Positions 1 to 22,567 of a stretch of DNA of 59,996 nt are shown here, one piece after another (position 1 is the stretch's first letter; each line of letters starts with the position of its first letter). Origin of the DNA: an uncultured Clostridia bacterium (lineage in GTDB: Bacteria; Bacillota; Clostridia; Christensenellales; DTU072); contig CALVNL010000006.1 in NCBI GenBank assembly GCA_944349655.1, forward strand, positions 1-59,996. The letters run 5' to 3'. The notes under the pieces are model-generated. The model saw only the letters and a list, made by a program, of their open reading frames with translations, was not told the origin of the DNA and ran no database searches. Both the position numbers and the translations under genes were made by a program.

Positions 1-3000
1 TGTGGAAGCGTTGAGGTTGCCGAGAGGATTGATACTGACGTCTCTCCAGACGACCTCTAAAATTTCGCCGTTGACGTCTATCTTGTTCGGTAGGTCGGCA
101 ACGGAATATTCGAAGGGATTGTCCACGTTTTCTCTCGTAACGGTTTTTCCTTCGTCGTCGATTACGATAAGTTCTCCCTGCGGTAAGGTGCGGTCGTTCA
201 CTCTCACTATGAGCGACACGGTCTGAAGTTCTTCGGTAACGGTATTATAAAGATTTGCGGTAAGTTCGGTGAATTTATGGAGATAATAATCCCTTTCCAC
301 CCTCTCCGCGTCTATACCCGCCGCGGCGAGAGTATCTCCGCTTTCCGAAACAAGGCTCTTTCCTGCGCGATAATATTTATATAACGTTATCTTGTTTTCG
401 TCGGTTATATCCTCAAAGAAACTGCTCACCATTCCTTCGAGAATGGTCATTCTGTTATATTCGGAAGCGTTTTCGGATTTTATCTCCGCCCAGGTCTTTC
501 CTTCGATAGTCTCGGAAACCGTATCGAGATAACTTCCCAGCAAATCGTTATCGACATACATATTATATGCGTTGAAGAAGGCGTAAACGTATCCGTAAAC
601 GTCGTCGCGTTCGTTCCCGGAATAATTGACTTTCCCGGAAACGTTGTCGTTGGTCCACGCCACGTCGAAGGTATATGCAAACCCTCCGCTCGCTTCGTCG
701 AATTCCGCCACGAGTTTGGTCGGAACCACCCTGTAGTCGTAGTACGGGTCGATGTAATAATAACCGTTTTCGGTATTCAGCGCCTGAACTTTTTTGATTT
801 CACGCATTATCCTGCTTTCCATCAATACCCCTTCCACGAAGTTGGTGACGCCTCGGGTCAAAATGGTATCGAGCATAGTGGAGATGTCCACGGACGTGGT
901 CAGATTGCGACGGATAGCCGTGACGGTTACAGAGAAATTCTGAATGGCGTCGATATTGTCGGACACGATAACGGGATACAGTTCGGCAATTTCGTTCGGC
1001 AAAGCCGTCGTTTCGGTATACGAGAAATCAAACGCCTCGGTTATCAATTTTTGCAACAACCGACGCATCTCGGCTTTATCGGTATAAGCGTAGTTACGCG
1101 CAAAGTAAGCGATATCTTCATTCAACGACTCATATACGCTACCGCCTTGTTCGGTAAGCCCCAGTTTTATATTGACTATGTTGCGAACTTTATTATAGAC
1201 GGTTTCGGACGCCGAAACGCGGGATTTGGCTACCCGTTCAGCCTCGTCAAGGGCGTCGGTCAGAATTTGTTCGTAGAGTTCGTAAACCTCTTCGTCGGTA
1301 TCGGAATAAATACCGTTGTCGATGAAATATTCTCTGATACGATAAATTTCTCTGATAACGTAATCGTAGTCGTAAGACGCTTCGAAAACGTTTTTGTAAT
1401 AAGACGAGTAGCCGATAAACTCTGCGTTTTCCTTGGAAATATAGTCATTAAACGCCCAGCCGAGTTCCAGTTTCACGTAATCGGAAATTATCCTGTCGTA
1501 GGAATTATTATGGAGCTGAGTATAGAAGTTGGAAAGTTGCAAAGCGATATTGTTCTGCTGTTGCGCCGAGGACATGGAGGAATTATTCAATATTCTGAAC
1601 AAAGCCGGAGCGTACTGGGCAGCAAGGATTTCGGCTTCGGCGTTCAGCACCGCTATGGCAAAATTCCAACACTGTTCGTCGTCGTAAACATCGTTCTTCT
1701 TCCCGTCTTCCACCTCCGAAGTCAAGTCGTAAGGCAGGAGAGCAAGCCAGGCTTCGAGAAGTTCATCCTTAATCTGCGCTTCGGTCATATTGCCGTAAAT
1801 GTCCGCAGCGGAAACTTCGGTTACGCTTTCGGCGGCACTTTTCGCCTGCGCGTACATATTCTCTATATTGACTTTAATTCTCGTCTGATTGAACTTGTCC
1901 AGGAGTTCGCCTTCCAGCCCTTCGCTGACGGCGGACATCGCCTCGGCTATTTCCGCCCTTATGACTTCGTCGTCGGGACTTATCACAGCCGTCACGGAAT
2001 CTACCGTCTTATCGTAGAAACGGAAACGTATATCCAGCGTCTGACTCAGTCCGAGATCCACCGTAAGATCTATATAGGACTTATCGAGTGCGGATACCGG
2101 CACTCCCAGCGTCGCGGCAAGGGTTTCGGTGTCTATCCCTTTCACGTTGAACGGAATACCCGAAACGGGAATATCGTTGAACTTATACTCCACTCCGTAG
2201 AAGACGTGGCTTCTTTTGCTGAGATAATACGTGGCGATGTTTTCCGGCAAAGTGAAGTAACCGTCGCTGTTGTAGGAATTGTTCATATCGTTGAAAGCGT
2301 CCACTTCCACGTAATGCTTCCTGGTATTGTCGTCGAATTTAACCGAAGTGGTATCCAGTCCGATAAACCCTTCCTGCCACGGAAGATCGACGATTTCGGC
2401 GGATTCTATGGAAATATAAAGCTTTATGGTTATTCTGTCGTGATAAACTTTCTGTCCGCCCACGGTTTCTTCCCAGCCGAGAATTTCCGCAGTCGCCATG
2501 GTATATTTGTCGGTCAGACCTGTGGCGTTGTTATAGGTTCCGGTATAGGTCATTCTGTCCAGCTGTCCCGTGCCTACGACCTGATCGCCTTCTATGACGG
2601 TGTTGCCGTACCAGGAAGGATTGATGGTCCAACGGACGTTGCTCACGTTGACCGTGCTTCCGCCCAACTCTAAAGTAAGGGACGTCGGCAGATACCCGGT
2701 GCCGCCGAAATAGGTTGTAAGCGGCATATAGTCGTAAATGTCCTGAATATTGATGGTTCCGCTCCTTATCAGAAGTCCGGACGTGTTGGTGCTGTTATAC
2801 TCGTCTATGCTCTCGGGTACTCCTCGGAAATTGAGCGTTCTTCTGACGCGGAAGCCTTCGGAAGTCAGACAGCTTACCGTTATCGTCCCGCTCTTAGTGG
2901 AATAAACCACGCTCTGCGGAATAACTTCGATAAAGCTTCCCACAGCCACTTCGGCAAAGCTGCTGCTTTCCACGTACCAGCGGTTGAGCGTCGGATAGGA

Positions 3001-6000
3001 AGCCCCGTAAGCCGGACCGTAATAAAATGCGTCGGTTTTTCCCAATCCGTCCTGTTTTTCCGCGCCGATTTCGGCGGAAAGTTCCTCTCCGAGAATATAA
3101 CCGTTTGCGCCGTATTGAGCGTATCCTGCCTGAGAATAAGGCTTTACTTCGACGTCGATGGCGGCTTCGTCGTCGGAGTTCATTCTATACCCGCCGTCGA
3201 ATATCAGTCTTAAGGTTATGTCGTAAGAACCTTCTCCCGTTCCTAAACCTATCTTGTATTTATCCTTTTCGGAAAAATCTTTGCCTCTTACCACGTCGTT
3301 GACGTAGAAGATACCTTCAAAATCTTCGATTTCCACGACTTTGTCGGTAACGCTCGTCACTGCGTAACTCCTGCGGTGAGCGTTAAAATAGGTAAGACGG
3401 TAATTGAGTTCGTAGTAACTCATCGAACTGCCGTCGGCAAATTCCAGTCTCGTGAAACCGAATTCCTGCCCTTCGTAAATCCATTTAATAGCCCCTCTTT
3501 CGTAAACGTAGAGGTTCTTTAAGGTAAGATTATTCGCAGATATGTCGGTTTCGCCGCTCGAAGTGACGATTTTCGAAACCGTACGGTCGTCTATATCTTC
3601 GCTCAGAATAAGATACGTATAAGCAATGATTATTTCTTCCACGGTTACCGACTTGACGTAGTTGCCGTCCTTGTAGAGTTTTACAAACCCGTTTTCCTGC
3701 TTTATAAGATAACTTACCGAACCGTCTCTGTAAATCATATCGACGTTTATTACGTTTTTGGCGGAGGCGTTGTCGTAAGAATAGCTATAAGTGAGAACTT
3801 CTCCCAGTTTGCGGGAACGTTCCACCCCGGAATCCTCGTTATAGAAATCAGCCTCGTATTCGGTAATGTCTTCCAAGGTCACGGGCTGTCCGTCCTCGAA
3901 GGAAATATTCATTTTCGAGTAAGCCGCTTTGATAAAGTCGTACGGATACATGTCGGTGTAAAGCACGTAATCCGTTCCTTCTTTACGGTAAAGACCGATC
4001 TTGCCTGCGGGTACGCCGTTGTCGGCGGCTTGATCCATACTTATGAGGATATATTTTTCGTTTATAAGCTCGTATATTTCGTAAAGCCCCATTTCGGCGG
4101 TATTGTAGTCCGCCTGCAACAGTTCGCCTATCCGTTTATAATTACCGTGGTCGCCCACCTGAACGTAATAACCGCTTATGTCGCCCGTAAGTACGATTTC
4201 TTCGATTTGAATATTGGCTACCACCACCGACAGATAAATGGTTATGGTAATGTCTCCCGTTCCTATTACCGCTATCATATTGCGGACGGAGTCGGGTGCG
4301 AAGAAATATTTTTTGCTGCCGTCGGCAAGAGTCCAGGTCACGTCGTAATATTCGCTTCTGTCTTTGTTGACGCCGAAATACGCTTTAATGTAATCGGGCA
4401 GGCGGAAATCGGCAAAAGTATTGACGTAATAGGTATAAAACGCCTTTTCGGTAATACTTTCTCCGTCTAAAGCTATATTGACGTCGGTACGTTCGATACC
4501 GCTTATCTTGGTCCCGGAGGGACTGGAACCGAGATAAAATTCCACTTCCTGCGGATCTTTACTCAGTACCTTTATACATACGGTAATATACTCGTATCCC
4601 GAAACTTCGCTTCCTATTCTCGCCATAATCCTCGTGGTCAGAGGTTCGTCGGTGGGAAGATTGAAAATATATTTCCCGTCTTCGTAACGCAATACCTCCA
4701 CGCCGGAATCGTTGGTAAGCGAACCTTCTCCGAAATATTCGCCCTCGTCGTTCTTTGCAAAAGTCGCTCTCCATTCGATATTGCTGAACTTATGAGTAGC
4801 CGTCATATCTTCGCCGTCGGTAAAATGAATAACCGCGTCTGTCGGAATGACCAGAGTATCGGCGTCCAACGGGTCTATAAGATAATACCCGGGAGTATTG
4901 GTGCCTATCTGCACCGCGTCGGGAGTGAAGACCACTTTGTTCCCGTTGGTATCCGTATCCTCGTCGTCGGCTTCCTGTATGACTTCTCCCGAAGAGGAAG
5001 TCGCCTGAGCTATATCCAGTCTGGGACATTCGGCGGTTATGTAAAGCACCGTGGTCATAAATCCGCTGTAAGTCGCGTCTCCGCTTATAAGCGGTATTTT
5101 AATAGAATTACCGGTATATTGACCCATCTGTCTTTCGGGTTTATAGATAGCCAGAAGATCGAACCAGTTGACGCTGGTGCTGGTTATATCGGTGTCGAAA
5201 AGTTTGGTGGGCGCTTCTTCTCCTATAATCGTACCGTTCTCGTCCGTTATGACGTTGGCGATATCGAACGGACGGTTGACCAGAACTTCATTGCCCGAAC
5301 CGTCGTCTTCGTAATAATACGAGCCGTTTACGCCGATATAGGTTATTTGCGGATTGTACCAGGTAAGCGTATACATGGGATTGATGACGTAGTTACCCGT
5401 ATTGTTCAATCCGCTGACGTAAGACATATCGAACACTTTTTCGTAATAATGATTGGCTCCGTCGGTGAACACGAAAATCGGATTGACGGGAATGGTATAA
5501 CTTGCTTCGTCGAAATAGTTGGCTACGTAATGCCCGTAAACATAGCCCGCGTCTCCGGGATTTTTGCCGGGATTGGCTTTGACGGGATCGAAATCGTCGT
5601 CTTCGGAGAACTTAATATGCGAAAGTATCCGCTGTTCCACGTTGACTTCCAGCGCGATAAGCTGTCCTTTGAAATAAGTATGGACGTAAAGTACCGTTGC
5701 GGTATCTCCTCCGCTTGCCACCGTACTTATCTTGTCTTCGGTATAGTTGCCGTCCTCGTAACGGTCAAAACTCCAGTTATAAGTCGTTCCGTCCTGAACG
5801 TTGTTGTAAGAGGTGGCGATGTATTCTTCTTTGACCTCGTTGTTGACGAGATAGTTGTCAGGATCGAATTCAATGGTAAATTCGTAAGAAGAGAAGAATT
5901 TATTGATAAATTCCACTTCCTTTTCCTTGAATACTCTGAGATATTCGGGGTCTTGTCCGTCCACCGATTCCGCTCCGTACTGATCGGGATTGTAGTTGTT

Positions 6001-9000
6001 GATATCCATAAAGAACTCGTTTTTGGCGAGTATATAGTCGTACGGGTCTATGGTTATGCTGTCCACTACAGGCACGTCCTGCGTGAGATAATCGGTAGTT
6101 CCGGTATAAACGCTCACTTTGTCGTCGGTAAGTATTTTTCGGTTGGTGACGATAACTCTGACCGGGAAGGTCTTTTCGCCCATCGTGCCGGGCGCGATGG
6201 TCACCTCCGTAACGTCCATAAATCCGTCCAAAGTTATATTCTCCGCCGCAATGTCGAATACCGCCGGCAAATTATATATTTCCACCGTGTTATTGACCTG
6301 CATATTCAATGCAATGTCTTCGGGGAACGGTTCGCACGGCTCGAATACGTACAAGACTATGGGGTTCGGTTCCTCTCTGATGAGAATACCGTCGTCGTCG
6401 TAAATTTCCAACACGTTGTCACGGTCGGCGTCGCTGTAGAACGTACGGTTGTTAAGTTCGATAATCTTCGACCTTTCCGCAAGTATGGGAGAAGTTATGG
6501 TGAGGATATAACGACGAATGTTGCCCATAAAACTTCCGTTTATTCTCGGAGCGTACTGGGTCTTGGCCTGTTCGGTGATTTCTATGCTCTCCTCGTCGTA
6601 CTCGAACAGGAATTTCTTGGTCCCTCTCTCGGGATAAATGTAAATAAAATCGCCGTTTTCGTCGAGTAAGGCTTTATTTGTGTCATAATAACAGTATTCG
6701 CTTTCGCCTAAATGGTGTACTCTGTCTTTTATGCCGAGGTAATAAATATACAATACCGAGCCTTCCACTCTGACGTATTGATCGTCTATCTGAACTTCTT
6801 CCCCGTCGTAAGTGGTGTAGAAATAATTCTCTCCTTTCATATAAACGAAAGATTGCACCTTGTCGTAGCGGAAACGGACTTTGGATATATCCTGGTTGTT
6901 TTCGTCTTCCTGATTGAAGAAAGAGTCGGACGCGTATTCGATGCTTTCTCTTATGATGGACACCTGTCCGCCTTTTTCGTAAACCTGGATAACCCCCGTT
7001 TCTCTGTCCACCCTGAGGTCGTACTCGAGATAGGAATATTCCCCGTGATAGTCCTCGTAGAAATAAACGGGTATGGTGTCGTGCAGTACGGTATCGTAAG
7101 GACTGTTGCCGGTCATATCCTCGAACTGTCCCACCTGATACATTCCGTAATCGTTCTTTATGGACTGCAAGCCTTCCACTCTGTGAGTAAAGCCTGCGTT
7201 TGCCCTGATGTTACCGATAAGTCCCTTTACGCGGAAGAGGTTCTGCAAGGTTTCGTTACTGGAAGTAATTTCCATCTGTTCGGGTTCCATAACGACGTAG
7301 CTGTCCTCTATCAGCGCAAGAAGAATACTGGTTATGCTGAGGTTTACTTCGCTTTCGCCCAAGTCCGCCGCGTCGTCGGAAATGCTCGTTCCGTCCAGAT
7401 AAGCCTGCATGGAACTCATAAAGACGTCTTCTCGGATTTTTACTTTCGGAATTTTCTGAATACCGTCCTTGTCGGTAACGCACTCTATGCTTACCCAGAC
7501 GTAACCGAGTTCCGCCGCCCGTTCGGGCTGGTTCTGATAAACGTCGTTATTGAATGCCACGTCGTCACTGGCAAGACGGATTATAACGCTGGACTCCGCT
7601 CCCGTAAGCCAGACGTTCAGTTCGAAGGCGCTCCTGCCCTGTTTTCGCAAAACTCCTTCCACTTCGTGGTCGGTAACGAACTGGTCATAAACCAGTTCGA
7701 AGGTGAGCCCGGCGTCGGACGCCAAAATATACGGCGTGTTTAGTCCCGAGTTCTCCCCTATCGTCGCGCTGAGAAGTTTCGACAGATCCACCGTTTCGGC
7801 GGCGCTGAAAATGAAATTGCCGTTCATGGTGGCGGAATAAGTCATAATCTGCTGCAAGGGCTTGAATCCGTCGAAATTGACTTCGGCGATGTCCACGTGC
7901 TGACCTACGATAACGGGGGTTATGTCGAGTTGGAAGATCATCAAGGAGTCTTCCCCTTCCTCTATCCCCACGTTGGTGAGCATTTTTATGGTTATTTCGT
8001 TGGTATCTACGTTAAGCGTGAAGGTAAAATAAGTGTTGTCGAGCATAACTTCGGCATTGGCTACGCCGAGCATTATGGCTATCTGGTCCAAAGAATACGG
8101 CAGCATCGAGTCCAAAATGTTTATAATCTGCCTCGTCGTGTAAGTACCTTGCCCCGTCTCTTCCAGAACGTGTTTGATAAGTTCCATATCCACCGTGAGC
8201 GTTACGGTGTTTTTACTGAATATATCGTTCGGATCCTTCTCGGTCATCGAGGTCTTGTCCATTATGTACTCGAGAAGATAATTCTCCTTGTCGTTTTTGT
8301 CCGGACTCAATATCGCGTCCACTATACTGACGATGGACTCGTCGATAAAATCGAACATTTCCCCCAAAGCTTCGGCAAGGTTCAGACTTTCGTCGTAAAC
8401 TTTCGGAAAACCGAGTTCGTTAAGATCGATCCACCCGTAGAGATACTCCATTCCCGAAATATCGATGAAGGTCTTTTCGTATTTGTAATACGCTCCGATC
8501 ATCAGTTCGCCGTTGGCGATATCCCTGTATTCCATGAATACGTTGTTGGTGGAGTTGTCGTAACGCTGCATATCGGTACGGATAAGGGCGTCGAAATTGG
8601 AATTTATCATCGGAATATAGAGATTTCCGACAAATTCGTATTTACCGTATTCGTAAGGGGTGTAGAAATCCTTATCGAGGTCTATTCCGTCGGGAGGATA
8701 GGTTCCGTATTCGAACGTCACGTCGGAAACGTAGTTATAAATGCTCCCGCCGCTCAACGCCGCACCCGTAAAGGTGAGATACGCACCGGTCATTATCTCC
8801 TTGGTGCCGGACGGGTCGGGTTCGGTAAAGAACTGCATATCGCTTGCGATACTGTTGATGACCGCGCTCCCCACCACCGAGAACTTGAATCCGAGATATT
8901 TCAAGGTCAAAGGGTCGATTTTGTTTTCGAACGGTTCGAATATCCCCTGAATGAAATCGGTAATGGTGCTCGCCACGGCGTCTGCGGCTATCCCGTAAAA

Positions 9001-9807
9001 CAGCACGCTGGTCACGGGCGAATTCAGAACCACCTTGTAGTTGTCGGTAACGGCAACGTCGAACAGAGACTCCAGACTGCTGGTTCCGGCGTCGCCCTGC
9101 AAGTCCCCCGCCACGAGAAGCTCTTCCACCGACAAACTCATCAGAAGACGAATGAGCTGTTGATAAAGCACGGTGTCGCCGAAATCGGGGAAACTGCGTT
9201 TATAACCTTGAATGTTGAGGTACAGAATGTTACCGGGGTCTTCGCTGTTGCTGTTGAGACCGTCGAAATACATACCGATGAGCATTTCGTTGGTGGTGCC
9301 GTTGTACCACTCTATCAAAATGTCGCTCTTCTTGATGACTTCGTTGTGGATATCCTCGGCGCTGACTTTTTCACGGGTGCCCTCGGGGTTCTGCTCGTCG
9401 TAATACTGTCCGTCGGACTTGTCGTAATATTTGTAAATGAGATTGCCTTCCTCGTCGAGGTAAGGATAAGTGAACAGGTGCGCCTGTATCTTGAGACGGA
9501 AGTTGCCGCCCTCCAAGGTTTCGGGATCGAGGGTGTCGATATTGAATTCCATTCCCATATAGTATCCCGTGGAGGAAACCACTTCGGAATCGAGATACTC
9601 CCTGAGATTGGTGATACCGCCGGTGACCCTGTCTATGGCCTGATCCTTGGTGGTGGTATCCTTGTTGAGGGCGTTGGCGGAGTTGTCGTTTATGTAATAC
9701 TTGCTGCCCTCGACGGGTTCGGCAAGTTCGCAGGCGGTAAGAGCGAGCGCCACCACAATAAGCGCCGTCACGAAAAACAGTAACTTAGCCAACCTGCCTT
9801 TATTCAT
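1..9807 (-). CDS. Giant cell-surface lipoprotein, 3' end outside window
   Basis: Read on the minus strand from an ATG at 9807, the frame stays open for 3269 codons to the window edge; I read each line of this register and found no stop. The N terminus begins MNKGRLAKLL and has a hydrophobic stretch ending in LTAC, a signal peptidase II lipobox, so the protein should be lipid-anchored outside the membrane. A GGAGG site lies 8 bases upstream. Most of the chain is rich in D, E, Y, T and V, with short beta-type segments like bacterial Ig-like or adhesin stalks. A helical, Glu/Ala-rich part covers about residues 2600-3170. I recognise no catalytic domain. It is probably an adhesin or structural surface protein; the true C terminus and function are unknown. 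It has its own promoter (9869-9897) and faces away from its right-hand neighbour. Confidence 0.9.
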   Translation of the reverse strand, partial: MNKGRLAKLLFFVTALIVVALALTACELAEPVEGSKYYINDNSANALNKDTTTKDQAIDRVTGGITNLREYLDSEVVSSTGYYMGMEFNIDTLDPETLEGGNFRLKIQAHLFTYPYLDEEGNLIYKYYDKSDGQYYDEQNPEGTREKVSAEDIHNEVIKKSDILIEWYNGTTNEMLIGMYFDGLNSNSEDPGNILYLNIQGYKRSFPDFGDTVLYQQLIRLLMSLSVEELLVAGDLQGDAGTSSLESLFDVAVTDNYKVVLNSPVTSVLFYGIAADAVASTITDFIQGIFEPFENKIDPLTLKYLGFKFSVVGSAVINSIASDMQFFTEPDPSGTKEIMTGAYLTFTGAALSGGSIYNYVSDVTFEYGTYPPDGIDLDKDFYTPYEYGKYEFVGNLYIPMINSNFDALIRTDMQRYDNSTNNVFMEYRDIANGELMIGAYYKYEKTFIDISGMEYLYGWIDLNELGFPKVYDESLNLAEALGEMFDFIDESIVSIVDAILSPDKNDKENYLLEYIMDKTSMTEKDPNDIFSKNTVTLTVDMELIKHVLEETGQGTYTTRQIINILDSMLPYSLDQIAIMLGVANAEVMLDNTYFTFTLNVDTNEITIKMLTNVGIEEGEDSLMIFQLDITPVIVGQHVDIAEVNFDGFKPLQQIMTYSATMNGNFIFSAAETVDLSKLLSATIGENSGLNTPYILASDAGLTFELVYDQFVTDHEVEGVLRKQGRSAFELNVWLTGAESSVIIRLASDDVAFNNDVYQNQPERAAELGYVWVSIECVTDKDGIQKIPKVKIREDVFMSSMQAYLDGTSISDDAADLGESEVNLSITSILLALIEDSYVVMEPEQMEITSSNETLQNLFRVKGLIGNIRANAGFTHRVEGLQSIKNDYGMYQVGQFEDMTGNSPYDTVLHDTIPVYFYEDYHGEYSYLEYDLRVDRETGVIQVYEKGGQVSIIRESIEYASDSFFNQEDENNQDISKVRFRYDKVQSFVYMKGENYFYTTYDGEEVQIDDQYVRVEGSVLYIYYLGIKDRVHHLGESEYCYYDTNKALLDENGDFIYIYPERGTKKFLFEYDEESIEITEQAKTQYAPRINGSFMGNIRRYILTITSPILAERSKIIELNNRTFYSDADRDNVLEIYDDDGILIREEPNPIVLYVFEPCEPFPEDIALNMQVNNTVEIYNLPAVFDIAAENITLDGFMDVTEVTIAPGTMGEKTFPVRVIVTNRKILTDDKVSVYTGTTDYLTQDVPVVDSITIDPYDYILAKNEFFMDINNYNPDQYGAESVDGQDPEYLRVFKEKEVEFINKFFSSYEFTIEFDPDNYLVNNEVKEEYIATSYNNVQDGTTYNWSFDRYEDGNYTEDKISTVASGGDTATVLYVHTYFKGQLIALEVNVEQRILSHIKFSEDDDFDPVKANPGKNPGDAGYVYGHYVANYFDEASYTIPVNPIFVFTDGANHYYEKVFDMSYVSGLNNTGNYVINPMYTLTWYNPQITYIGVNGSYYYEDDGSGNEVLVNRPFDIANVITDENGTIIGEEAPTKLFDTDITSTSVNWFDLLAIYKPERQMGQYTGNSIKIPLISGDATYSGFMTTVLYITAECPRLDIAQATSSSGEVIQEADDEDTDTNGNKVVFTPDAVQIGTNTPGYYLIDPLDADTLVIPTDAVIHFTDGEDMTATHKFSNIEWRATFAKNDEGEYFGEGSLTNDSGVEVLRYEDGKYIFNLPTDEPLTTRIMARIGSEVSGYEYITVCIKVLSKDPQEVEFYLGSSPSGTKISGIERTDVNIALDGESITEKAFYTYYVNTFADFRLPDYIKAYFGVNKDRSEYYDVTWTLADGSKKYFFAPDSVRNMIAVIGTGDITITIYLSVVVANIQIEEIVLTGDISGYYVQVGDHGNYKRIGELLQADYNTAEMGLYEIYELINEKYILISMDQAADNGVPAGKIGLYRKEGTDYVLYTDMYPYDFIKAAYSKMNISFEDGQPVTLEDITEYEADFYNEDSGVERSRKLGEVLTYSYSYDNASAKNVINVDMIYRDGSVSYLIKQENGFVKLYKDGNYVKSVTVEEIIIAYTYLILSEDIDDRTVSKIVTSSGETDISANNLTLKNLYVYERGAIKWIYEGQEFGFTRLEFADGSSMSYYELNYRLTYFNAHRRSYAVTSVTDKVVEIEDFEGIFYVNDVVRGKDFSEKDKYKIGLGTGEGSYDITLRLIFDGGYRMNSDDEAAIDVEVKPYSQAGYAQYGANGYILGEELSAEIGAEKQDGLGKTDAFYYGPAYGASYPTLNRWYVESSSFAEVAVGSFIEVIPQSVVYSTKSGTITVSCLTSEGFRVRRTLNFRGVPESIDEYNSTNTSGLLIRSGTINIQDIYDYMPLTTYFGGTGYLPTSLTLELGGSTVNVSNVRWTINPSWYGNTVIEGDQVVGTGQLDRMTYTGTYNNATGLTDKYTMATAEILGWEETVGGQKVYHDRITIKLYISIESAEIVDLPWQEGFIGLDTTSVKFDDNTRKHYVEVDAFNDMNNSYNSDGYFTLPENIATYYLSKRSHVFYGVEYKFNDIPVSGIPFNVKGIDTETLAATLGVPVSALDKSYIDLTVDLGLSQTLDIRFRFYDKTVDSVTAVISPDDEVIRAEIAEAMSAVSEGLEGELLDKFNQTRIKVNIENMYAQAKSAAESVTEVSAADIYGNMTEAQIKDELLEAWLALLPYDLTSEVEDGKKNDVYDDEQCWNFAIAVLNAEAEILAAQYAPALFRILNNSSMSSAQQQNNIALQLSNFYTQLHNNSYDRIISDYVKLELGWAFNDYISKENAEFIGYSSYYKNVFEASYDYDYVIREIYRIREYFIDNGIYSDTDEEVYELYEQILTDALDEAERVAKSRVSASETVYNKVRNIVNIKLGLTEQGGSVYESLNEDIAYFARNYAYTDKAEMRRLLQKLITEAFDFSYTETTALPNEIAELYPVIVSDNIDAIQNFSVTVTAIRRNLTTSVDISTMLDTILTRGVTNFVEGVLMESRIMREIKKVQALNTENGYYYIDPYYDYRVVPTKLVAEFDEASGGFAYTFDVAWTNDNVSGKVNYSGNERDDVYGYVYAFFNAYNMYVDNDLLGSYLDTVSETIEGKTWAEIKSENASEYNRMTILEGMVSSFFEDITDENKITLYKYYRAGKSLVSESGDTLAAAGIDAERVERDYYLHKFTELTANLYNTVTEELQTVSLIVRVNDRTLPQGELIVIDDEGKTVTRENVDNPFEYSVADLPNKIDVNGEILEVVWRDVSINPLGNLNAST

Positions 9808-9868
9808 AATCGATACCTCCGCCTGCTAAAAGGGCATTATTACCCCTTTATTTTTTATATGTATTTAT

Positions 9869-9897
9869 ATTGTAATACTCAAAACCGCGTATGTCAA
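9869..9897 (-). promoter_or_regulatory. Sigma-A promoter of the giant lipoprotein with palindrome over -35
   Basis: On the minus strand, TTGACA (9892-9897), a 17-base spacer and TACAAT (9869-9874) form a near-consensus promoter. A perfect inverted repeat, GCGTA-N6-TACGC (9887-9902), is centred on the -35 box, a place where a repressor would block polymerase. The promoter is seen directly; the operator role is inference. Confidence 0.75.
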
Positions 9898-9902
9898 TAC
9901 GC

Positions 9903-10133
9903 ATTTTGCCCGCACGCCCGCAAAAACGACTATTAAAAAAACTTTTTGCGGCGATTTCTTCCGCTTTTTTACGAATTTCCCCTATGACAAGGCTTAAAAG
10001 TTTGGAAATTTTTGTCAGGAATAAGCCTTTTTTCGTAAAATAAATTATGACGAAAAATTTTGATTTTTTTCAAAAAAAATAAACGACTGATTTTTTGCCG
10101 TTTTTCAAAAAATGTTTTTCAAACCAAAAATAA
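9903..10133. other. AT-rich gene-free stretch with nested inverted repeats
   Basis: No gene is visible between the giant lipoprotein promoter and the terminator of the small membrane protein. The stretch holds a 9-bp inverted repeat (ccgcaaaaa at 9918-9926 with its complement at 9943-9951) and an 8-bp one (aaggctta at 9989-9996 with its complement at 10022-10029, followed by a run of T). No convincing promoter for a small RNA was found. The rest is homopolymer-rich A/T sequence without recognisable features. Confidence 0.4.
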
Positions 10134-10153
10134 AACTCCGTTCGCACGGAGTT
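10134..10153 (-). terminator. Rho-independent terminator of the PLDc_N-type membrane gene
   Basis: Perfect 8-bp stem (aactccgt with acggagtt) around a 4-base loop, followed on the minus strand by TTTATTTTT. It lies 86 bases beyond the stop codon of the minus-strand gene at 10240. Confidence 0.75.
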
Positions 10154-10239
10154 GTCCTGTCTTGTTCGCTAAATTTAATTTTTCCTTAAAAATGTCTTTA
10201 GTTTCCCTCAATTCAAGTTTTAATATCCTTAAATAGGGT

Positions 10240-10551
10240 TTATTCGCTGTCTGCACTTTGTTCCTTTCTCGCCGTTTCTTCGGCAGCCTCTTCGGAAGAC
10301 AAGATATTTTTATCGGTCAAAGCGTCGTTTTCGACTCCGAGAGAGGTTTTGTTTTTTAAGGATTTTTTCTTATTTATCAAATAATATATCCAGAATGCGG
10401 CCGCGCCTAAAAACGGAATTATTATAATTATAACGTTCCATATAACGGTAACGTTTTTTTCTTTTTTCATTCCGAAAAGTTTTATCAAGCTCATTATCGC
10501 CACGGGGTACTGACAAAGTACTGCCACCACCGCTATAAGCACGGGATCCAT
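10240..10551 (-). CDS. Small membrane protein with PLDc_N-like domain
   Basis: This 103-residue protein has two hydrophobic segments, about residues 5-25 and 38-60. The second contains VIWNVIIIIIPFLGA followed by an aromatic, basic stretch, which is the signature of the cardiolipin-synthase N-terminal (PLDc_N) domain seen in many small Bacillota membrane proteins. The C-terminal 40 residues are charged, low in complexity and probably cytoplasmic. There is no phospholipase HKD motif, so it is not itself a synthase. The start follows ACGGAGGAC. It is monocistronic, with its own promoter and terminator. The cellular role is unknown. Confidence 0.75.
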   Translation of the reverse strand: MDPVLIAVVAVLCQYPVAIMSLIKLFGMKKEKNVTVIWNVIIIIIPFLGAAAFWIYYLINKKKSLKNKTSLGVENDALTDKNILSSEEAAEETARKEQSADSE

Positions 10552-10577
10552 CGGTCGTCCTCCGTTGTTTTTTATTT

Positions 10578-10606
10578 ATTATCGCCTATTTTACGTTGTT
10601 TGTAAA
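10578..10606 (-). promoter_or_regulatory. Sigma-A promoter of the PLDc_N-type gene
   Basis: Minus strand TTTACA (10601-10606), 17-base spacer, GATAAT (10578-10583). It sits 27 bases upstream of the ATG at 10551. Confidence 0.7.
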
Positions 10607-10706
10607 GAGTATTGACGTCGCAATAAAGAGGCTCGTTCCTTGCGCGTGCGGATACGTGCGGATAAAACGTTTGATTTTTATATTAGTCTATGATAAACTA
10701 ACAGCT

Positions 10707-11543
10707 ATGAGCGAAACAGTCATCTCGGTGGAGAACGTCTCCTATACTTACAAATCCTCGCAGAACGAAACCGTCGGCGTAAAAAATCTTTCCCTTTCCA
10801 TCGAAAAGGGAGATTTCGTTGCGTTCCTCGGTCACAACGGCAGCGGAAAAAGCACGCTTGCCAAACTGCTGAACGGTTTTCTTCTGCCCGACGAAGGTAA
10901 GGTTTTCGTGGAAGGGACGGACACCGCCGACGAAGCCAAAACTTACGAAATTCGCAGTAAAGTGGGAATGGTTTTTCAAAACCCCGACAACCAGATGGTG
11001 GCGTCCGTTATCGAAGACGACATAGCTTTCGGGCCGGAAAATCTCGGCGTGGAAAGGGAAGAAATCGTCCGCAGAGTGGACTGGGCGCTGGAAACGGTAA
11101 AAATGAGCGAATATCGCACCCGTACCCCTTTTAAGTTGAGCGGAGGACAAAAACAGCGTATTGCCATAGCCGCAATACTTGCCATGATGCCCGAAGTCCT
11201 GATCCTCGACGAGTCTACCGCAATGCTCGATCCCGAAGGACGGAAAGAAGTCCTCGATACCGTAAAAAGGCTCAATAAAGAAAAAAATATGACGGTAATA
11301 CTCATTACCCACTATATGGACGAAGCGCTGGAAGCCGACAAGGTTTTCGTTTTCAGCGAAGGTTCTCTGATAAAAGGCGGTACGCCGAGGGAGGTTTTTT
11401 CCGATTTCGGAGCGGTGGAAAAAGCCAAATTGCTTCTGCCCGTCGCCACTGCCGCGGGGAAGGCGTTAGTCGAAGCGGGAATAAAAATCAACGTTCCTCT
11501 TACCGATGAGGAACTGGCGGAGGAAATATGCTCGTTGAAGTAA
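10707..11543 (+). CDS. ecfA1: ECF transporter ATPase subunit EcfA1
   Basis: This is one of the two ABC ATPases that energise uptake by energy-coupling-factor vitamin transporters. The 278-residue protein has Walker A (GHNGSGKST, near residue 40), a Q-loop (MVFQNPDNQ), the ABC signature LSGGQKQRIAIA, Walker B (VLILDEST) and a switch His in LITHYMDEA. The ATG at 10707 was chosen because the family starts close to the first strand; an upstream ATG at 10596 would add 37 unrelated residues. No good Shine-Dalgarno sequence precedes 10707. Its end overlaps ecfA2 by 16 bases, and ecfT follows, so these genes form one operon. It is a shared (group II) module, because no S component lies beside it. The S component at 41766 is a likely client. 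Confidence 0.93.
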   Translation: MSETVISVENVSYTYKSSQNETVGVKNLSLSIEKGDFVAFLGHNGSGKSTLAKLLNGFLLPDEGKVFVEGTDTADEAKTYEIRSKVGMVFQNPDNQMVASVIEDDIAFGPENLGVEREEIVRRVDWALETVKMSEYRTRTPFKLSGGQKQRIAIAAILAMMPEVLILDESTAMLDPEGRKEVLDTVKRLNKEKNMTVILITHYMDEALEADKVFVFSEGSLIKGGTPREVFSDFGAVEKAKLLLPVATAAGKALVEAGIKINVPLTDEELAEEICSLK

Positions 11544-12382
11544 AAAATCTTTCCTACGTTTACAGCGAAAAAACTCCGTTCGAAAAACAGGCTCTCAAAG
11601 ACGTTTCTTTCGTGGTGGACGAAGGTCAGAGCGTGGGCATAGTAGGCGCCACGGGTAGCGGAAAAAGTACGCTCGTGCAACATCTCAACGGGCTTATCCG
11701 CTTGAAAAACGGTAAAATAACCGTTCTCGACATAGATTTATCCGCAAAAAAACCCGATCTGAAAGCTTTGCGTAAAGGGATAGGAATGCTTTTCCAATAC
11801 CCCGAATATCAGTTGTTTGCGGATACCGTGGCTTCCGACGTAATGTTCGGCCCGCTCAATTTCGGATTTTCCAAAACCGAAGCCGAGGAAGCCGCCCGCC
11901 GTGCAGTAAACATGGTAGGGATGGACTACGACTCGGTAAAGGACCGTTCCCCTCTGGAACTGTCGGGAGGACAAAAACGCCGCATCGCCATAGCCGGCGT
12001 GCTGGCATACCGTCCGAAAATCCTGATCCTCGACGAACCCACCGCAGGGCTCGATCCTGCAGGCAAAAGAGAAATGCTTTCCCTTATCGCATCCCTGAAG
12101 GGCGAAGAGATTTCCACGGTCATAACCGTCAGTCACAATATGGACGAAATAGCGGAATTTTCTCAAAGAGTTCTGGTCATGAATAACGGCAAACTGCTTT
12201 ACGACACCACCCCTTCCGAACTTTTCTACCGACTGGACGTGGAAGCGCTCGGTCTGAGTCTGCCGCACACGGTCAGAATAGTCAGACTTCTGAAGGAAAA
12301 AAATATCATTCTTCCCGAAGTGCTTACCGAAAAAGATCTCGTAGCCGCCCTTCTCGCCTACGCCGGAGGTCGCAATGCGTGA
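11528..12382 (+). CDS. ecfA2: ECF transporter ATPase subunit EcfA2
   Basis: This is the second ATPase of the ECF energising module; it pairs with EcfA1 and docks on EcfT. The 284-residue protein has Walker A GATGSGKST, a Q-loop (MLFQYPEYQ), LSGGQKRRIAIAGVLA, Walker B ILILDEPTAGLDP and a switch His in VSHNMDE. The sequence is typical of EcfA2, including the phrase QLFADTVASDV after the Q-loop. It starts inside the end of ecfA1 and overlaps ecfT by 8 bases, which points to translational coupling and balanced subunit supply. Confidence 0.94.
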   Translation: MLVEVKNLSYVYSEKTPFEKQALKDVSFVVDEGQSVGIVGATGSGKSTLVQHLNGLIRLKNGKITVLDIDLSAKKPDLKALRKGIGMLFQYPEYQLFADTVASDVMFGPLNFGFSKTEAEEAARRAVNMVGMDYDSVKDRSPLELSGGQKRRIAIAGVLAYRPKILILDEPTAGLDPAGKREMLSLIASLKGEEISTVITVSHNMDEIAEFSQRVLVMNNGKLLYDTTPSELFYRLDVEALGLSLPHTVRIVRLLKEKNIILPEVLTEKDLVAALLAYAGGRNA

Positions 12383-13187
12383 CGTAGCTTTCGGTCAATT
12401 CTATCCTGCGGACTCATTCGTCCATAAGCTCGACCCGAGAACCAAACTTTTAGCCGGCATTGTTTATATCGTGGCGGTGTTTCTCTGCACCTCATACTAC
12501 TCGTATCTCGCCTGCTTCCTTTTTCTCGTAATCTCGATTATAGTATCCCGTATCCCTATAAGAAGCGTCCTGAAAACGGTAAAAGCGGTTTTATTTATAA
12601 TAATTATCACAGTCGTCATCAATATTCTTTTTTACTCCGACGGCAAGGTTTTGTGGTCGTGGTGGAAACTTACGATTACCGAACAAGGTCTTATTTTCGC
12701 TTCCAAAATGGCTATGAGACTGTTGTTTCTGGTGCTTTCCACTTCTTTAATCACGCTGACGACCACCCCCATGAATCTGACAGACGGACTGGAAAGCCTG
12801 CTCACTCCTCTTAAATGGATAAAATTTCCCGTCCACGACGTGGCGATTATTATGAGTATAGCTTTAAGGTTTATTCCTTCCTTTATGGAAGAAATAGACA
12901 AAATAATGATGGCGCAGAAAGCCCGCGGGGCGTCTTTCGACACCGGCGGACTGATAAAAAGGGCAAAGGCGTTGCTGCCCATACTCATCCCCCTTTTCGT
13001 ATCGGCTTTCCGCAGAGCGGACGAACTGGCAATGGCGTTGGACGCGCGTTGTTATAACGCCACGCCCAACCGTACCAAAATGAAAAAACTTACCTTTACC
13101 GGAAGAGACGTGGTCGCCTGGGTGCTGACCGCGGCGTTCCTTGCGATAATTATAATGCTCCGCACGGGCTTTTTCGGGCTTTTGTGA
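12375..13187 (+). CDS. ecfT: ECF transporter transmembrane subunit EcfT
   Basis: EcfT is the membrane scaffold that couples the EcfA1A2 ATPases to interchangeable S components. The 270-residue protein has several hydrophobic segments (about residues 26-44, 46-64, 73-91, 110-130 and 247-265) and the conserved N-terminal phrase SFVHKLDPRTKLL. Two coupling-helix motifs are visible: AQKARGASF (ARG) and ALDARCYNA, where the second has the ARC variant common in Clostridia. It overlaps ecfA2 by 8 bases and truA by 4 (GTGA), as in the widespread ecfA1-A2-T-truA order. Confidence 0.94.
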   Translation: MRDVAFGQFYPADSFVHKLDPRTKLLAGIVYIVAVFLCTSYYSYLACFLFLVISIIVSRIPIRSVLKTVKAVLFIIIITVVINILFYSDGKVLWSWWKLTITEQGLIFASKMAMRLLFLVLSTSLITLTTTPMNLTDGLESLLTPLKWIKFPVHDVAIIMSIALRFIPSFMEEIDKIMMAQKARGASFDTGGLIKRAKALLPILIPLFVSAFRRADELAMALDARCYNATPNRTKMKKLTFTGRDVVAWVLTAAFLAIIIMLRTGFFGLL

Positions 13188-13930
13188 TCATGGCGAGAAT
13201 ACTTCTTACGGTGGAATATTTCGGCAAAAATTACGCCGGCTGGCAACGGCAGAAAAACGCTCTCGGCGTCCAGGAAGTTCTGGAAAACAAACTTTCGCTG
13301 GTTTTGCAACAAAAAATAGTCCTTGTCGGAAGCGGCAGGACGGACAGCGGCGTGCACGCCTTGGCGCAGAAAGCTCATTTCGATTACGAGGGAAACTTCC
13401 CCCTGAAAAAACTCGCCTACGCCGTCAATACCACCCTGCCGTGGGACATAAGAATACGCAGCGCAGAAACCGTCCCCGACGACTTTCACGCTCAGTATTC
13501 CGCCCATTCCAAGACTTACGTTTACAAAATGTATCTTTCCCGCACCTCCCGTCCTCTCAAGGACTTGCATTACGCCCGTATTCCCTACGAAAAAATCGAT
13601 TTTGCGGCGATGAAGCAAGCCTGCGGCGATCTGGTCGGGACCCACGACTTCAAGGGCTTTTCCTCTACGGGCAGCGGTATAAAAACCACAATCCGCACCG
13701 TTTTTTCTGCCGAACTTTACGAAAACGGAGAAGATATAACTCTGGAAATCTGCGGCAACGGTTTCCTTTACAATATGGTCAGAATAATCGCCGGCACCCT
13801 CGTCTGGATAGGCGTCGGAAAACTCCCCGTTTCGGCGGTGAAAGATGTCCTTACCACGGGAAAAAGAACTCTCGGAGGAAAAACTTTTCCACCTCAGGGA
13901 CTGTATCTGAAAGAGGTAAATTATGAATGA
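13184..13930 (+). CDS. truA: tRNA pseudouridine(38-40) synthase TruA
   Basis: TruA makes pseudouridine at positions 38-40 of the tRNA anticodon stem. The 248-residue protein carries the catalytic motif GSGRTDSGVHAL, whose Asp is the nucleophile, the N-terminal phrase ILLTVEYFGKNYAGWQRQ and the C-terminal NMVRIIAGTLVWIG block. The start is either GTG at 13184, which overlaps the ecfT stop as GTGA, or ATG at 13190, two codons later and closer to the family's usual start. Location next to ecfT is the standard Bacillota arrangement. Its stop overlaps the start of the next gene by 8 bases. Confidence 0.95.
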   Translation: MIMARILLTVEYFGKNYAGWQRQKNALGVQEVLENKLSLVLQQKIVLVGSGRTDSGVHALAQKAHFDYEGNFPLKKLAYAVNTTLPWDIRIRSAETVPDDFHAQYSAHSKTYVYKMYLSRTSRPLKDLHYARIPYEKIDFAAMKQACGDLVGTHDFKGFSSTGSGIKTTIRTVFSAELYENGEDITLEICGNGFLYNMVRIIAGTLVWIGVGKLPVSAVKDVLTTGKRTLGGKTFPPQGLYLKEVNYE

Positions 13931-15308
13931 ACAAACGTTGAAAGCTCCGCTCAGAATTCTGAACGGAATCAGAAAATTCCTTGCAAGCGACTGGTATTAT
14001 CTTTCCGTTACCGTGCTTTGCGCAATATTTTATACCCTTAAACAGGAAGTAATAGGCGCTTTGGTTCTCGGATATATAGCAGGAATCGTTTTCGTGTTAA
14101 GCGACGACCTTTCCCCCGTTACTTTGCCTTTCCTTCTTATAGCCTCCTCCGTATTACGTCTTTACGACAGTGCCGACTTATGGTTTTCCTACATCCCTGC
14201 CATAATCCCGATCATTCCTTTGATTGCGGTTCATTTTATTCTGTATCGTCCCCGCTATCGCATCGGAAAAATGTTTTTCCCTTTGCTTGCAGTTGCCGTC
14301 GCCGTTACCTTGGGCGGTATAGGTATAACTTCGGTAAAGGATTATTTCAGCCCGACAAATCTTTATTATGTGGTAATGCTGGGCTTCGGAATGGTTATAT
14401 TGTACGTTATTTTTTATAATCATATCGGTATAAAAAAAGATTTCGATTACAAAAAATATCTCACCAAAGTCATGCTTTATTTCGGAGCTTTTCTCGTTTA
14501 TATGCTGTTTGTCGTTTACGTGGAAAGTTTTATCGAAGATAAAGAGCTTTATATTCAAATGGGTAACAATCTTTCGGCAAACCTTCTTATGACGATGCCT
14601 TTCGCTTTCTATTACAGCACGGTAAGCCGCCGTTATTCGATGGCGTTTTTCTGTCTCGGGCTGTTGGAATATCTCGCCCTCGTCCTTTCCCTTTCCAGAG
14701 GCGGAATGCTTTTCGGTACGGTTATGGTTGTTCCCTGCGCCCTGTTCGCCGTAAAAAAATCCGCAAAACAAGACAAACCGTTCCTTATAACGGCATTGGT
14801 GCTGTCGGGACTTGTCGCAATAATAGCTCTTTTTGCCTATATCGACGAAATTATTCCCATGCTTGCCGTAAAAAAAGACGAAGCGAGAGTTTATCTCTAT
14901 ACAGGAGCGGTAAAAGCATTTTTTGAATATCCTCTGTTGGGCGTGGGATTTCTGTTCAATACCGCAGATAAAATTCCTACCGGGGCAATTTACTGGTACC
15001 ATTCCACCCCGTTTCAGATTATCGGAAGTATGGGGCTTGTCGGGATCCTTGCCTACTGCTATTACTACGTTTACCGTTGCGTAATTCTTTGGAAAAACCG
15101 CAAAAGTAAATTCAACGTTTGTATTGCTTTATCTTTCATAGGATTTGAATTGCTCGCCCTCGTCAATCCGGGTACGTTCTGCCCTCTGCCTTATGTGGCT
15201 ATGATGACTTGTATCTTTACCGTTTTCGAAAAAATGAACGGTTCTGAACCATTGCCTTATATAAAGGATTTACTCCCTTCCAAAATCAAAAAAACAAAAA
15301 CCGCTTAA
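13923..15308 (+). CDS. O-antigen ligase/polymerase family membrane protein
   Basis: This 461-residue polytopic protein has roughly ten to twelve hydrophobic segments. Three motifs match the Wzy/WaaL (Wzy_C) family: SLSRGGMLFG, then ARVYLYTGAVKAFFEYPLLGVGF, and then a large loop with HSTPFQIIGSMGLVG. Members polymerise or ligate lipid-linked glycans on the outer face of the membrane. In a Gram-positive this would mean capsule, teichuronic acid or a secreted glycan rather than LPS. No glycosyltransferase lies nearby, so the substrate cannot be inferred. The gene is translationally coupled to truA, which is unrelated in function, and ends at a bidirectional terminator. Confidence 0.85.
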   Translation: MNEQTLKAPLRILNGIRKFLASDWYYLSVTVLCAIFYTLKQEVIGALVLGYIAGIVFVLSDDLSPVTLPFLLIASSVLRLYDSADLWFSYIPAIIPIIPLIAVHFILYRPRYRIGKMFFPLLAVAVAVTLGGIGITSVKDYFSPTNLYYVVMLGFGMVILYVIFYNHIGIKKDFDYKKYLTKVMLYFGAFLVYMLFVVYVESFIEDKELYIQMGNNLSANLLMTMPFAFYYSTVSRRYSMAFFCLGLLEYLALVLSLSRGGMLFGTVMVVPCALFAVKKSAKQDKPFLITALVLSGLVAIIALFAYIDEIIPMLAVKKDEARVYLYTGAVKAFFEYPLLGVGFLFNTADKIPTGAIYWYHSTPFQIIGSMGLVGILAYCYYYVYRCVILWKNRKSKFNVCIALSFIGFELLALVNPGTFCPLPYVAMMTCIFTVFEKMNGSEPLPYIKDLLPSKIKKTKTA

Positions 15309-15338
15309 ATTGTTTTCAAAAAACCGTGCAGAAAAAAA

Positions 15339-15360
15339 AGCGACGTAAGTTTACGTCGCT
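15339..15360. terminator. Bidirectional terminator between convergent genes
   Basis: A 10-bp perfect stem (agcgacgtaa with ttacgtcgct) and a 2-base apex is flanked by A8 on the left and T5 on the right. It therefore works for the plus-strand operon ending at 15308 and the minus-strand operon ending at 15378. Confidence 0.85.
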
Positions 15361-15377
15361 TTTTCGAATTTGTTATT

Positions 15378-16010
15378 TTAGTGCGGTTGTTTCAAGAACC
15401 AGTTATCGAGGAGTTCTTCGGAATATTCGGTTTCGCCCGTGAATTCCAAAACCCTTTTTTCTATGAATTCTCGACACGCTTTTTCCAGCATATAAGCGGT
15501 TTCGAAAGCTTCGTCCATATCTTTACCGCAACACAACACGCCGTGGTTTGCCATAAAACAGGCATTTCTGCCTTCCATAGCTTTAAGAGTGCCTTCTCTG
15601 AGTTTTTTCGTGCCGGGCAGTCCGTATGCCGCGACACGCACGTCTCCGCCGAAAATCGCTGCCGTTTCGTCGTCAGCGGGCAAGGTTTGTCTTGCCGCGG
15701 CGAAAATGCTGCCGTAAAGCGGATGAGTATGAATGACCGCTCCTATGTCGGGACGGGTACGGTAAACGGCGGCGTGTATCCCTCTTTCGCTGGTCGGTTT
15801 CAGTCTGCCCGTCCACTCCAGCGTCTCCAAATCCACTTTCGCCATATCTTCGGGTTTAAGGGACTTGTAATCCAGTCCCGAAGGCGTAGCGAACATATAT
15901 TTGTCGTCTATCCTTACCGAAGAGTTACCCCAGGTCCCCTGCACGAGGTTGTTGTCTAACAGTTTTACGCCGGAGTCGTATAAAATTTTTCTGAGTTCCT
16001 GTTCCGTCAT
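15378..16010 (-). CDS. Class II aldolase/adducin family enzyme (FucA/AraD-like)
   Basis: The 210-residue protein is a full-length zinc-dependent class II aldolase or epimerase. It has the phosphate-binding GTWGNSSVR, PSG, the catalytic-type Glu in TSERGIHAAVY, the metal ligands HTHPLYG and the third His in ANHGVLCCG. The family cleaves sugar 1-phosphates such as fuculose 1-phosphate to DHAP and an aldehyde, or epimerises ribulose 5-phosphate. The FGGY kinase upstream would supply the phosphorylated substrate. It is the last gene of a tight four-gene operon and is 1 base from its degenerate paralogue. The exact substrate is unknown. Confidence 0.88.
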   Translation of the reverse strand: MTEQELRKILYDSGVKLLDNNLVQGTWGNSSVRIDDKYMFATPSGLDYKSLKPEDMAKVDLETLEWTGRLKPTSERGIHAAVYRTRPDIGAVIHTHPLYGSIFAAARQTLPADDETAAIFGGDVRVAAYGLPGTKKLREGTLKAMEGRNACFMANHGVLCCGKDMDEAFETAYMLEKACREFIEKRVLEFTGETEYSEELLDNWFLKQPH

Positions 16011-16011
16011 T

Positions 16012-16614
16012 TTACATTTCCTCCTGCGATTTGTTCTTTTGGTTCTTTTTGCTGTATTTGAGTTTGTAAACCAATCTCATAAGCCGTGCGTCGAACGCTC
16101 CTATGTGCTTGCAACCGCCCAGTACGCTGCCCGCCACGAAAACCCTCGCCGCCTTTTCCAGTACCATCATACAGGTAAAGGCTTCGTCCAGCGTTCTGCC
16201 GGTGGTAAGCGCGCCGTCGTCTTTTATCAGAATGGAGTTAGCGCCTTTCAAAGCAGGAATTATCTTGTCGGTACGGTTCTGACAGACCTTGCATTTATAT
16301 CCCACTATCTGAGCCATATCGTCCAATGACGCAACAATGGTTCTGCCGCTTTTTGCCACCACGCAGGATTTTTCGGGGTGGGAATAGATTATGGCGTTCA
16401 CGTCGTAGGTGTTGAAAATTACCGCCGCCGCAGTGACTCCTTTTTTATAACTTTCCCTGACTACGTCGGACTCGGTAAGCGACCCGAGAGCGCCTTTCGT
16501 GACGTACATATCCTTGTCGTCTATCCTTAAGGCTATATAATCGTTTTCTCCGCACAGCTTTTCTTCCTTCAGCCGCGCGGCGTATTCCAGAATGTGACCT
16601 ATCCTGTTGTCCAT
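16012..16614 (-). CDS. Degenerate class II aldolase-fold protein lacking metal ligands
   Basis: This 200-residue protein aligns end to end with the adjacent aldolase: the DDK-Y/M block, the D-IxA(V/I)IxxHP strand, and then DGALTTGRTLDEAF for NHGVLCCGKDMDEAF. The active site is gone. GTWGNSS becomes GENDYIA, the Glu of TSER becomes Lys, HTH becomes YSH, and the third zinc ligand in NHG becomes DDG. Loss of the Glu and two of three His argues against aldolase chemistry. It could be a structural or regulatory partner of the active paralogue, since class II aldolases are tetramers. The C terminus is basic. It lies 11 bases from the kinase and 1 base from the active aldolase. Confidence 0.78.
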   Translation of the reverse strand: MDNRIGHILEYAARLKEEKLCGENDYIALRIDDKDMYVTKGALGSLTESDVVRESYKKGVTAAAVIFNTYDVNAIIYSHPEKSCVVAKSGRTIVASLDDMAQIVGYKCKVCQNRTDKIIPALKGANSILIKDDGALTTGRTLDEAFTCMMVLEKAARVFVAGSVLGGCKHIGAFDARLMRLVYKLKYSKKNQKNKSQEEM

Positions 16615-16624
16615 AGACCCTCCT

Positions 16625-22525: not shown

Positions 22526-22567
22526 AACTTTTTTCTTCTCCACGGACATATTCGGTTTTCCCTGTCG

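Follow-up and report, generated by a model that had tools for sequence, protein, structure and literature searches.

The Locus and Its Surroundings

The DNA considered in this study, which I will call the window, is a stretch of 59,996 nucleotides, and its first base is also the first base of contig C6, at an end of that contig, in an assembly of 1.66 Mb in 72 contigs. The window opens within a gene on the minus strand, whose product I will refer to as protein A, and the frame runs from an ATG start through 3269 codons with no stop (Table 1). A GGAGG ribosome-binding site precedes the ATG by 8 bases, and the translation begins with a signal peptide, behind which lies the lipobox L-T-A-C, its cysteine being residue 26. 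An earlier note on this DNA had claimed both an uninterrupted minus-strand frame of at least 3269 codons up to the window edge and a clear lipobox at its start. The first claim is borne out by the reading of ORFs, by the complete frames of relatives, and by dN/dS, the second by the LTAC motif and the ribosome-binding site upstream of it.

The stop of gene A is missing from the window because the assembly breaks there. The end of another contig of the same genome, C25, overlaps C6 exactly by 24 bases and continues the frame in phase to a stop, adding 488 new codons, so that the complete protein has 3757 amino acids (3269 + 496 − 8). The leftward extension advised in the note thus finds the stop 488 codons on and not immediately outside the window. 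ORFs on the other strand had also been predicted, and plus-strand ORFs of 540, 625, 343, and 628 amino acids do overlap gene A; it is the minus frame that the third-position bias fits. The gene contains no tandem DNA repeats of note, one 38-base array aside. Among 37 homologous loci, a pattern search located a lipobox in 35. The two exceptions are L072, whose sequence starts within the gene, and L081, where the corresponding letters, LWGC, lie outside the pattern.

Three neighbors of gene A in the window deserve mention. A divergent ECF-type transporter set (window 10596–13930, plus strand), comprising two ATPases and a CbiQ-type component, is followed by a tRNA pseudouridine synthase. It appears to be a neighbor by descent in this genus, since it occupies the same place in four genomes (G003, G005, G007, and G009) and not in the other genera read. 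Further on are two surface-type proteins, both on the minus strand: one of 880 amino acids (19910–22549), with five matches to Listeria-Bacteroides repeats and a transglutaminase-like domain, and one of 1998 amino acids (P0002; 23901–29897), with a signal peptide, a C-terminal membrane anchor, and a charged tail. P0002 matches no Pfam family above the cut-off, and among the fetched loci it has one partial relative only, in L057.

Table 1. Features of gene and protein A in the window. Residues are numbered from the start of protein A.
Feature	Position in window	Strand	Basis and remarks
Protein A	1..9807	-	3269 codons, truncated on the 3' side where the contig ends; 3757 aa with C25
GGAGG ribosome-binding site	9816..9820	-	8 bases before the ATG; sequence read
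Lipoprotein signal peptide, lipobox LTAC, putative lipidation at Cys26	9730..9807	-	Lipobox pattern
Predicted first LolA/LprG-like fold, residues about 50–377	8677..9660	-	AF2; VIA matches to LprG, LppX, LprF, SAOUHSC_02783; unit motif at residue 158
Predicted second LolA-like fold, residues about 385–653	7849..8655	-	AF2; VIA matches to LolA, LolB, RseB, ependymin-type; unit motif at residue 405
Third section of the N-terminal conserved part, residues 654–905	7093..7848	-	Conservation; barely covered by fold matches
Predicted beta-rich stalk, residues 906–2610, variable between genera	1978..7092	-	Conservation; AF2 from residue 2186 on
Predicted helical insert, residues 2614–3015, only in this genus and L062	763..1968	-	Alignment, AF2
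Predicted second, shorter helical stretch, residues 3069–3178	274..603	-	AF2
Exact 24-base overlap with the end of C25 (C25 supplies the remaining 488 codons of A, then gene B)	1..24	-	Contig comparison

Integrity of the Frame and Selection upon It

A long frame that ends at a contig edge might be an assembly artefact, a decaying gene, the work of chance, or a chimera, and one peculiarity of the gene could be read in the same sense: in comparison with G009, the closest relative, dS over the last 260 codons in the window is 0.12, as opposed to about 0.5 in most of the rest. I consider this explanation very improbable indeed. The chance of a frame as long as that of protein A arising from base composition alone is about 10^-76. 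Moreover, complete A frames, of 2954 to 4061 amino acids, occur in 21 relatives, and G009 carries A (3765 amino acids) and also the gene behind it, B, each whole and on one contig. These relatives practically refute an artefact, and the distribution of changes over codon positions speaks against it as well: over the 3269 codons in the window, the differences from G009 at codon positions 1, 2, and 3 number 219, 156, and 799, dS is 0.474, and dN/dS is 0.124.

The same comparison gives a dN/dS of 0.136 for gene B and 0.111 for a third gene, C, both described below. All three genes evolve under purifying selection. Within A the ratio is lowest in residues 1–905 (0.036), rising to 0.124 in the stalk (906–2600) and 0.21 in the helical insert. 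The fall in dS at the end of A extends beyond the window, from about 0.5 to 0.11–0.25 over the last 750 codons (window 1–807 together with 15831–17321 of locus L042, on C25), and along B and C dS ranges from 0.25 to 1.2. Such variation within the giant genes is possibly a sign of recombination.

The Membrane-Proximal Base

The conservation of protein A is concentrated at its N-terminus. When the 21 complete A proteins are compared to the query in steps of 100 residues, identity is 34–50% in residues 1–900 and 3–28% in the remainder. The earlier note overlooked that these 900 residues are the best conserved part, and one predicted to have a LolA/LprG-like fold.

It had stated that no family is recognised, and so it proved: Pfam gave no family for A or B, and none above the cut-off for P0002, while NCBIfam, to which A and P0002 were submitted, gave nothing for A. 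Protein C contains a single Pfam domain, CarboxypepD_reg (E 1.7e-8). In particular, no match to the Pfam families LolA or LppX_LprAFG was found at E ≤ 0.1 in 38 A2 and 10 A5 members, nor at E ≤ 1 for A itself. When A2 and A5 were run as profiles against the PDB, the matches stayed at chance level: a truncated haemoglobin (0.2), antibody chains, and a hypothetical lipoprotein (0.0044), the last confined to profile positions 1–94, a span that takes in the signal region.

The fold is suggested by structure prediction. An AF2 model of residues 27–905 (38 sequences) has a pLDDT of 82.4 and a pTM of 0.76. Foldseek found no match to this model in the PDB under E 1e-3; its best 50 rows include LolA (prob 0.87), LolB, DUF1329, apoB, and lipovitellin but also unrelated proteins, e.g., fatty acid synthase. 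With VIA, 42 of the 50 matches listed are of the types LolA, LolB, LprG, LppX, LprF, RseB, MucB, ependymin, DUF1329, or staphylococcal LolA, and the other eight are three CymA, two FimD, AIDA-I, apoB, and lipovitellin; families absent from the lists are not thereby excluded. The matches fill two separate ranges of the model, about 24–361 (LprG, LppX, LprF, SAOUHSC_02783) and about 359–627 (LolA, LolB, RseB, ependymin-type). The best Z is 8.3, which the guidance given with the tool places on the threshold of significance, and unrelated models can reach about that value. The picture is coherent, and it makes a borderline case for a LolA/LprG/LppX-type fold occurring twice in the one chain of A.

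A short unit motif was built by iteration from C and often recurs at a spacing near 300 residues. Ten A proteins have two copies each, nine B proteins one or two each, and six C proteins 9–12 each, as compared to no occurrence in 25 reversed sequences. The claim of tandem units in A draws on the structure model and this motif. The unit profiles compare weakly with one another: unit 1 against unit 2 reaches a probability of 44%, and unit 3 gives none.

The base also bears on the idea that the three giant proteins have no specific ligand and act as spacers, of the structural wall or S-layer-like kind, or as protective fibers. Their great length, the presence of several copies, and their retention across a family of small genomes would suit such a role, as would one weak match of the stalk to the S-layer protein EA1. 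However, a base with 77 fully invariant columns in 38 sequences, and with the low dN/dS given above, is more than a spacer seems to need, and I regard this explanation as improbable.

Stalk and Helical Insert

The earlier note described a beta-rich, stalk-like part and a late helical region, and both can be seen in an AF2 model of residues 2186–3260 (pLDDT 85.9), in which the first 425 residues form beta sandwiches, followed by about 400 helical residues and then a second helical stretch. The best Foldseek matches of the stalk model are protocadherins (E 1.3e-4, prob 0.85); the Z by VIA is only about 4, and A has no Pfam Big or cadherin domain. A stalk profile revealed one shared domain only, present in 3 of 10 A proteins and all 6 C proteins and in none of 9 B proteins.

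The late helical region is best described as a clade-limited insert of about 400 residues, since 18 of 26 aligned relatives have just 13–24 residues at the site. The other eight have 292–608; these are L055, L057, L058, L060, L064, L086, and L088, all from the genus of the window, plus L062.

Cadherin-type matches and a stalk of beta sandwiches, less conserved than the base, are what one would expect if A, B, and C were giant adhesins, their LolA-like folds a mere structural base and their variable stalk and tip binding feed particles, mucus, or other cells. The CarboxypepD_reg domain inside C agrees with this, and in Apilactobacillus kunkeei giant surface genes standing in tandem have been interpreted as encoding interaction proteins (PMC12863079). 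On the other hand, the best conserved and most constrained part of the protein is the membrane-proximal base and not the tip, and no known model of an adhesin or carbohydrate-binding domain matches A or B. Since constraint is strongest in the base, lipid handling seems to me the better explanation than adhesion alone; the adhesin explanation is rather unlikely, if still one to be taken seriously.

Paralogues B and C

By sequence comparison, protein A (3757 amino acids) is one of three paralogous, predicted giant lipoproteins, the others being B (5108) and C (11,335). Gene B begins 21 bases behind A on C25 (L042, positions 483–15809) and has its own lipobox. Gene C, also with a lipobox, lies away from both, on contig C9 of the same genome (L045/L046/L092, positions 18987–52994). 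Together the three genes occupy 60.6 kb, or 3.7% of the genome.

A profile of the N-terminal domain of A matches the N-terminus of all nine B proteins in which homology was tested, with best-stretch E values of 1e-45 to 9e-17, and it matches two C proteins in the set at E 3e-10 and, weakly, 9e-4 (G030). A putative B stands behind A at other loci as well: the stop of A lies inside the locus in 23 of the 37 loci, and in 22 of these an ORF with a lipobox, on the same strand and open to the end of the locus, starts within −25 to +200 bases of it. The remaining locus, L063 (940 amino acids), has 68 bases left behind the stop, too few to show such an ORF.

Protein C is predicted to hold about 9–14 LolA-type units in a row. 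Beyond the first, the tie of these putative units to A is the short motif, found in 9–14 copies in five more C proteins, four of them from outside the family in which the motif originated. Compared profile to profile, C aligns with the A units at its N-terminus and in a stretch near 6600–7000, and nowhere else.

No ligand, partner enzyme, or transporter could be tied to A or B by neighborhood, and what lies next to them changes from genus to genus. Two other genera encode an additional lipoprotein, of 857–916 amino acids, just upstream of A (L079, about 6128–8701, in G030; L102, 8474–11224, in G015). Behind C, the members of families f8 and f17 that were read have a gene for another large exported protein (L122–L123, L126–L127, and L128–L129; at least 2734, 1288, and 2498 amino acids), which is possibly a partner of C.

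Distribution among Genomes

The order surveyed is the Christensenellales of GTDB. In the family to which the window belongs, 33 of 34 genomes have the A domain (G014 being the one without), as against none of 24 other genomes of the order. The earlier note had called lipid-anchored proteins of this size rare; within its own bacterial family, protein A is instead the rule, and it is accompanied by the larger paralogues B and C. The relatives at the loci are named Christensenella sp., Christensenellaceae, Clostridia, and Candidatus Stercoripulliclostridium (placed by NCBI in Eubacteriales incertae sedis), and their sources, where given, include roe deer rumen and colon, sheep rectum and colon, and goat colon.

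C-type genes spread more widely. A profile from five C proteins matched 47 of 248 genomes of the order at E 0.001, some through the signal region only, and a ten-row C profile matched 82 of 395 genomes at 1e-5, many of the matches being limited to about the first 60 residues. The count of C-type frames takes only those with E ≤ 1e-38 and a frame of more than 6000 amino acids. At this cut-off there are 32 genomes with such frames, from four families (18 in f1, 9 in f3, 4 in f17, and 1 in f8), the frames being 6203–13,589 amino acids long. Five C genes that were read through, four from outside f1 and one more from within, are intact, with a lipobox, and encode 9117–13,588 amino acids; the length of 13,588 is reached on contig C2 of G007.

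A search of 393 genomes of the class gave no credible relative outside the order. Its six matches, in frames of 167–759 amino acids, are probably signal peptides, because all are limited to the first 125 query residues. Viral sequences were searched as well: 132 pattern matches in viral_contigs were left with none confirmed, and 50,697 phage records contained no relative. A phage or prophage origin of protein A was rejected on these searches.

Envelope and Proposed Function

The genome encodes both enzymes of lipoprotein maturation looked for, Lgt (E 1.4e-51) and LspA (E 2.3e-36), so that a lipobox with its cysteine goes together with the means to lipidate it. Omp85 and LptD were found in none of 21 relatives, whereas the controls were matched in 7 and 2 of 14. 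A diderm envelope is ruled out as far as these two proteins go, and the cell is therefore probably monoderm. The envelope data fit a lipoprotein kept on the outer face of a single membrane.

The anatomy of protein A taken alone (anchor, LolA-type units, stalk, and insert) I consider likely to be right. The full interpretation, that A is a wall-spanning surface fiber with membrane-proximal modules of a lipid-binding type, is tentative, its chances being somewhat short of even. In this interpretation protein A would be exported by Sec, attached to lipid at Cys26, and stay anchored in the outer leaflet of the cell's one membrane. Its two half-barrels, located in the wall space, would bind an amphiphile, as LprG and LolA do: a membrane lipid, a lipoglycan, a lipopeptide, or a fatty acid of the gut. 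The stalk, presumably long and exposed at the surface, would extend across the wall and hold the variable distal domains outside it, and A, B, and C would all be surface fibers that handle lipids at their base and make contact at their tip. A fold by itself demonstrates no function, and staphylococcal lipoproteins with a similar fold, for which no sign of lipid carriage was seen, count against the lipid reading.

A bolder proposal concerns the order as a whole: that these probably monoderm gut Clostridia have their own class of giant lipid-handling surface proteins, in which C, up to 13.6 thousand amino acids long and with 9–14 LolA-type units, would be a bridge passing lipids or lipid-linked molecules from the membrane through the wall, A and B being shorter, family-specific derivatives. 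I put this forward as speculation with a small chance of proving correct. In kind, such a bridge would be the bacterial equivalent of bridge-like lipid transfer proteins.

The proteins matter in several respects. Genomes of about 1.3–2.7 Mb give several per cent of their DNA to what appear to be lipid-anchored giants, which, one short domain in C aside, go without recognition by Pfam yet are kept by purifying selection. Should lipids indeed be carried by the LolA-type folds, there would be an unrecognised handling of amphiphiles across a monoderm wall, by proteins of up to about 1.5 MDa. Even if the giants are adhesins, they would make up a conserved and testable surface layer of gut bacteria, one that is split or missed by automated annotation where contigs end.

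Comparison with Known Systems

In the open-access literature I found no description of the trio, of the combination of a LolA fold with a giant protein, or of the size and order-wide spread of C. Giant tandem surface proteins, in A. kunkeei, and the LolA fold are already known, each separately. In a survey of huge prokaryotic proteins (more than 5000 amino acids), bacterial surface proteins are among the major clusters, and the words lipoprotein and Clostrid- each have no occurrence in its main text (PMC11573180).

The closest likeness in gene arrangement is to Giant1–5 of A. kunkeei, which are reported to be consecutive giant extracellular genes encoding 3000–8000 amino acids and taking up 6% of a 1.5 Mb genome (PMC12863079). 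Giant1–4 are described there as having an N-terminal beta-solenoid, whereas the model of A has half-barrels of strands and helices, along with a lipobox, and no beta-solenoid.

In fold, the second unit of A is most like LolA and LolB (2w7q, Z 8.1, 4.1 A over 152 residues), with which it would share a predicted half-barrel, in this superfamily one of long strands that helices close off. Those are single-domain carriers of outer-membrane lipoproteins in diderm, Gram-negative cells; A, in contrast, would have its units in tandem within a lipid-anchored giant, in a cell that is probably monoderm, and there is no sequence match. That the LolA-type fold does occur in monoderms is indicated by SAOUHSC_02783 and Csa1B of Staphylococcus aureus, similar in fold by VIA (Z 8.3 and 6.5), although these are small single-domain chains of 231 and 199 residues. 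The first unit of A is best matched by the mycobacterial proteins LprG, LppX, and LprF (3mh9, Z 8.2; 2byo, Z 8.1; 4qa8, Z 7.9). They too are lipid-anchored, with the fold directly after the anchor, and differ in their short chains (about 180–210 amino acids), in having no stalk, and in the mycobacterial envelope in which they reside.
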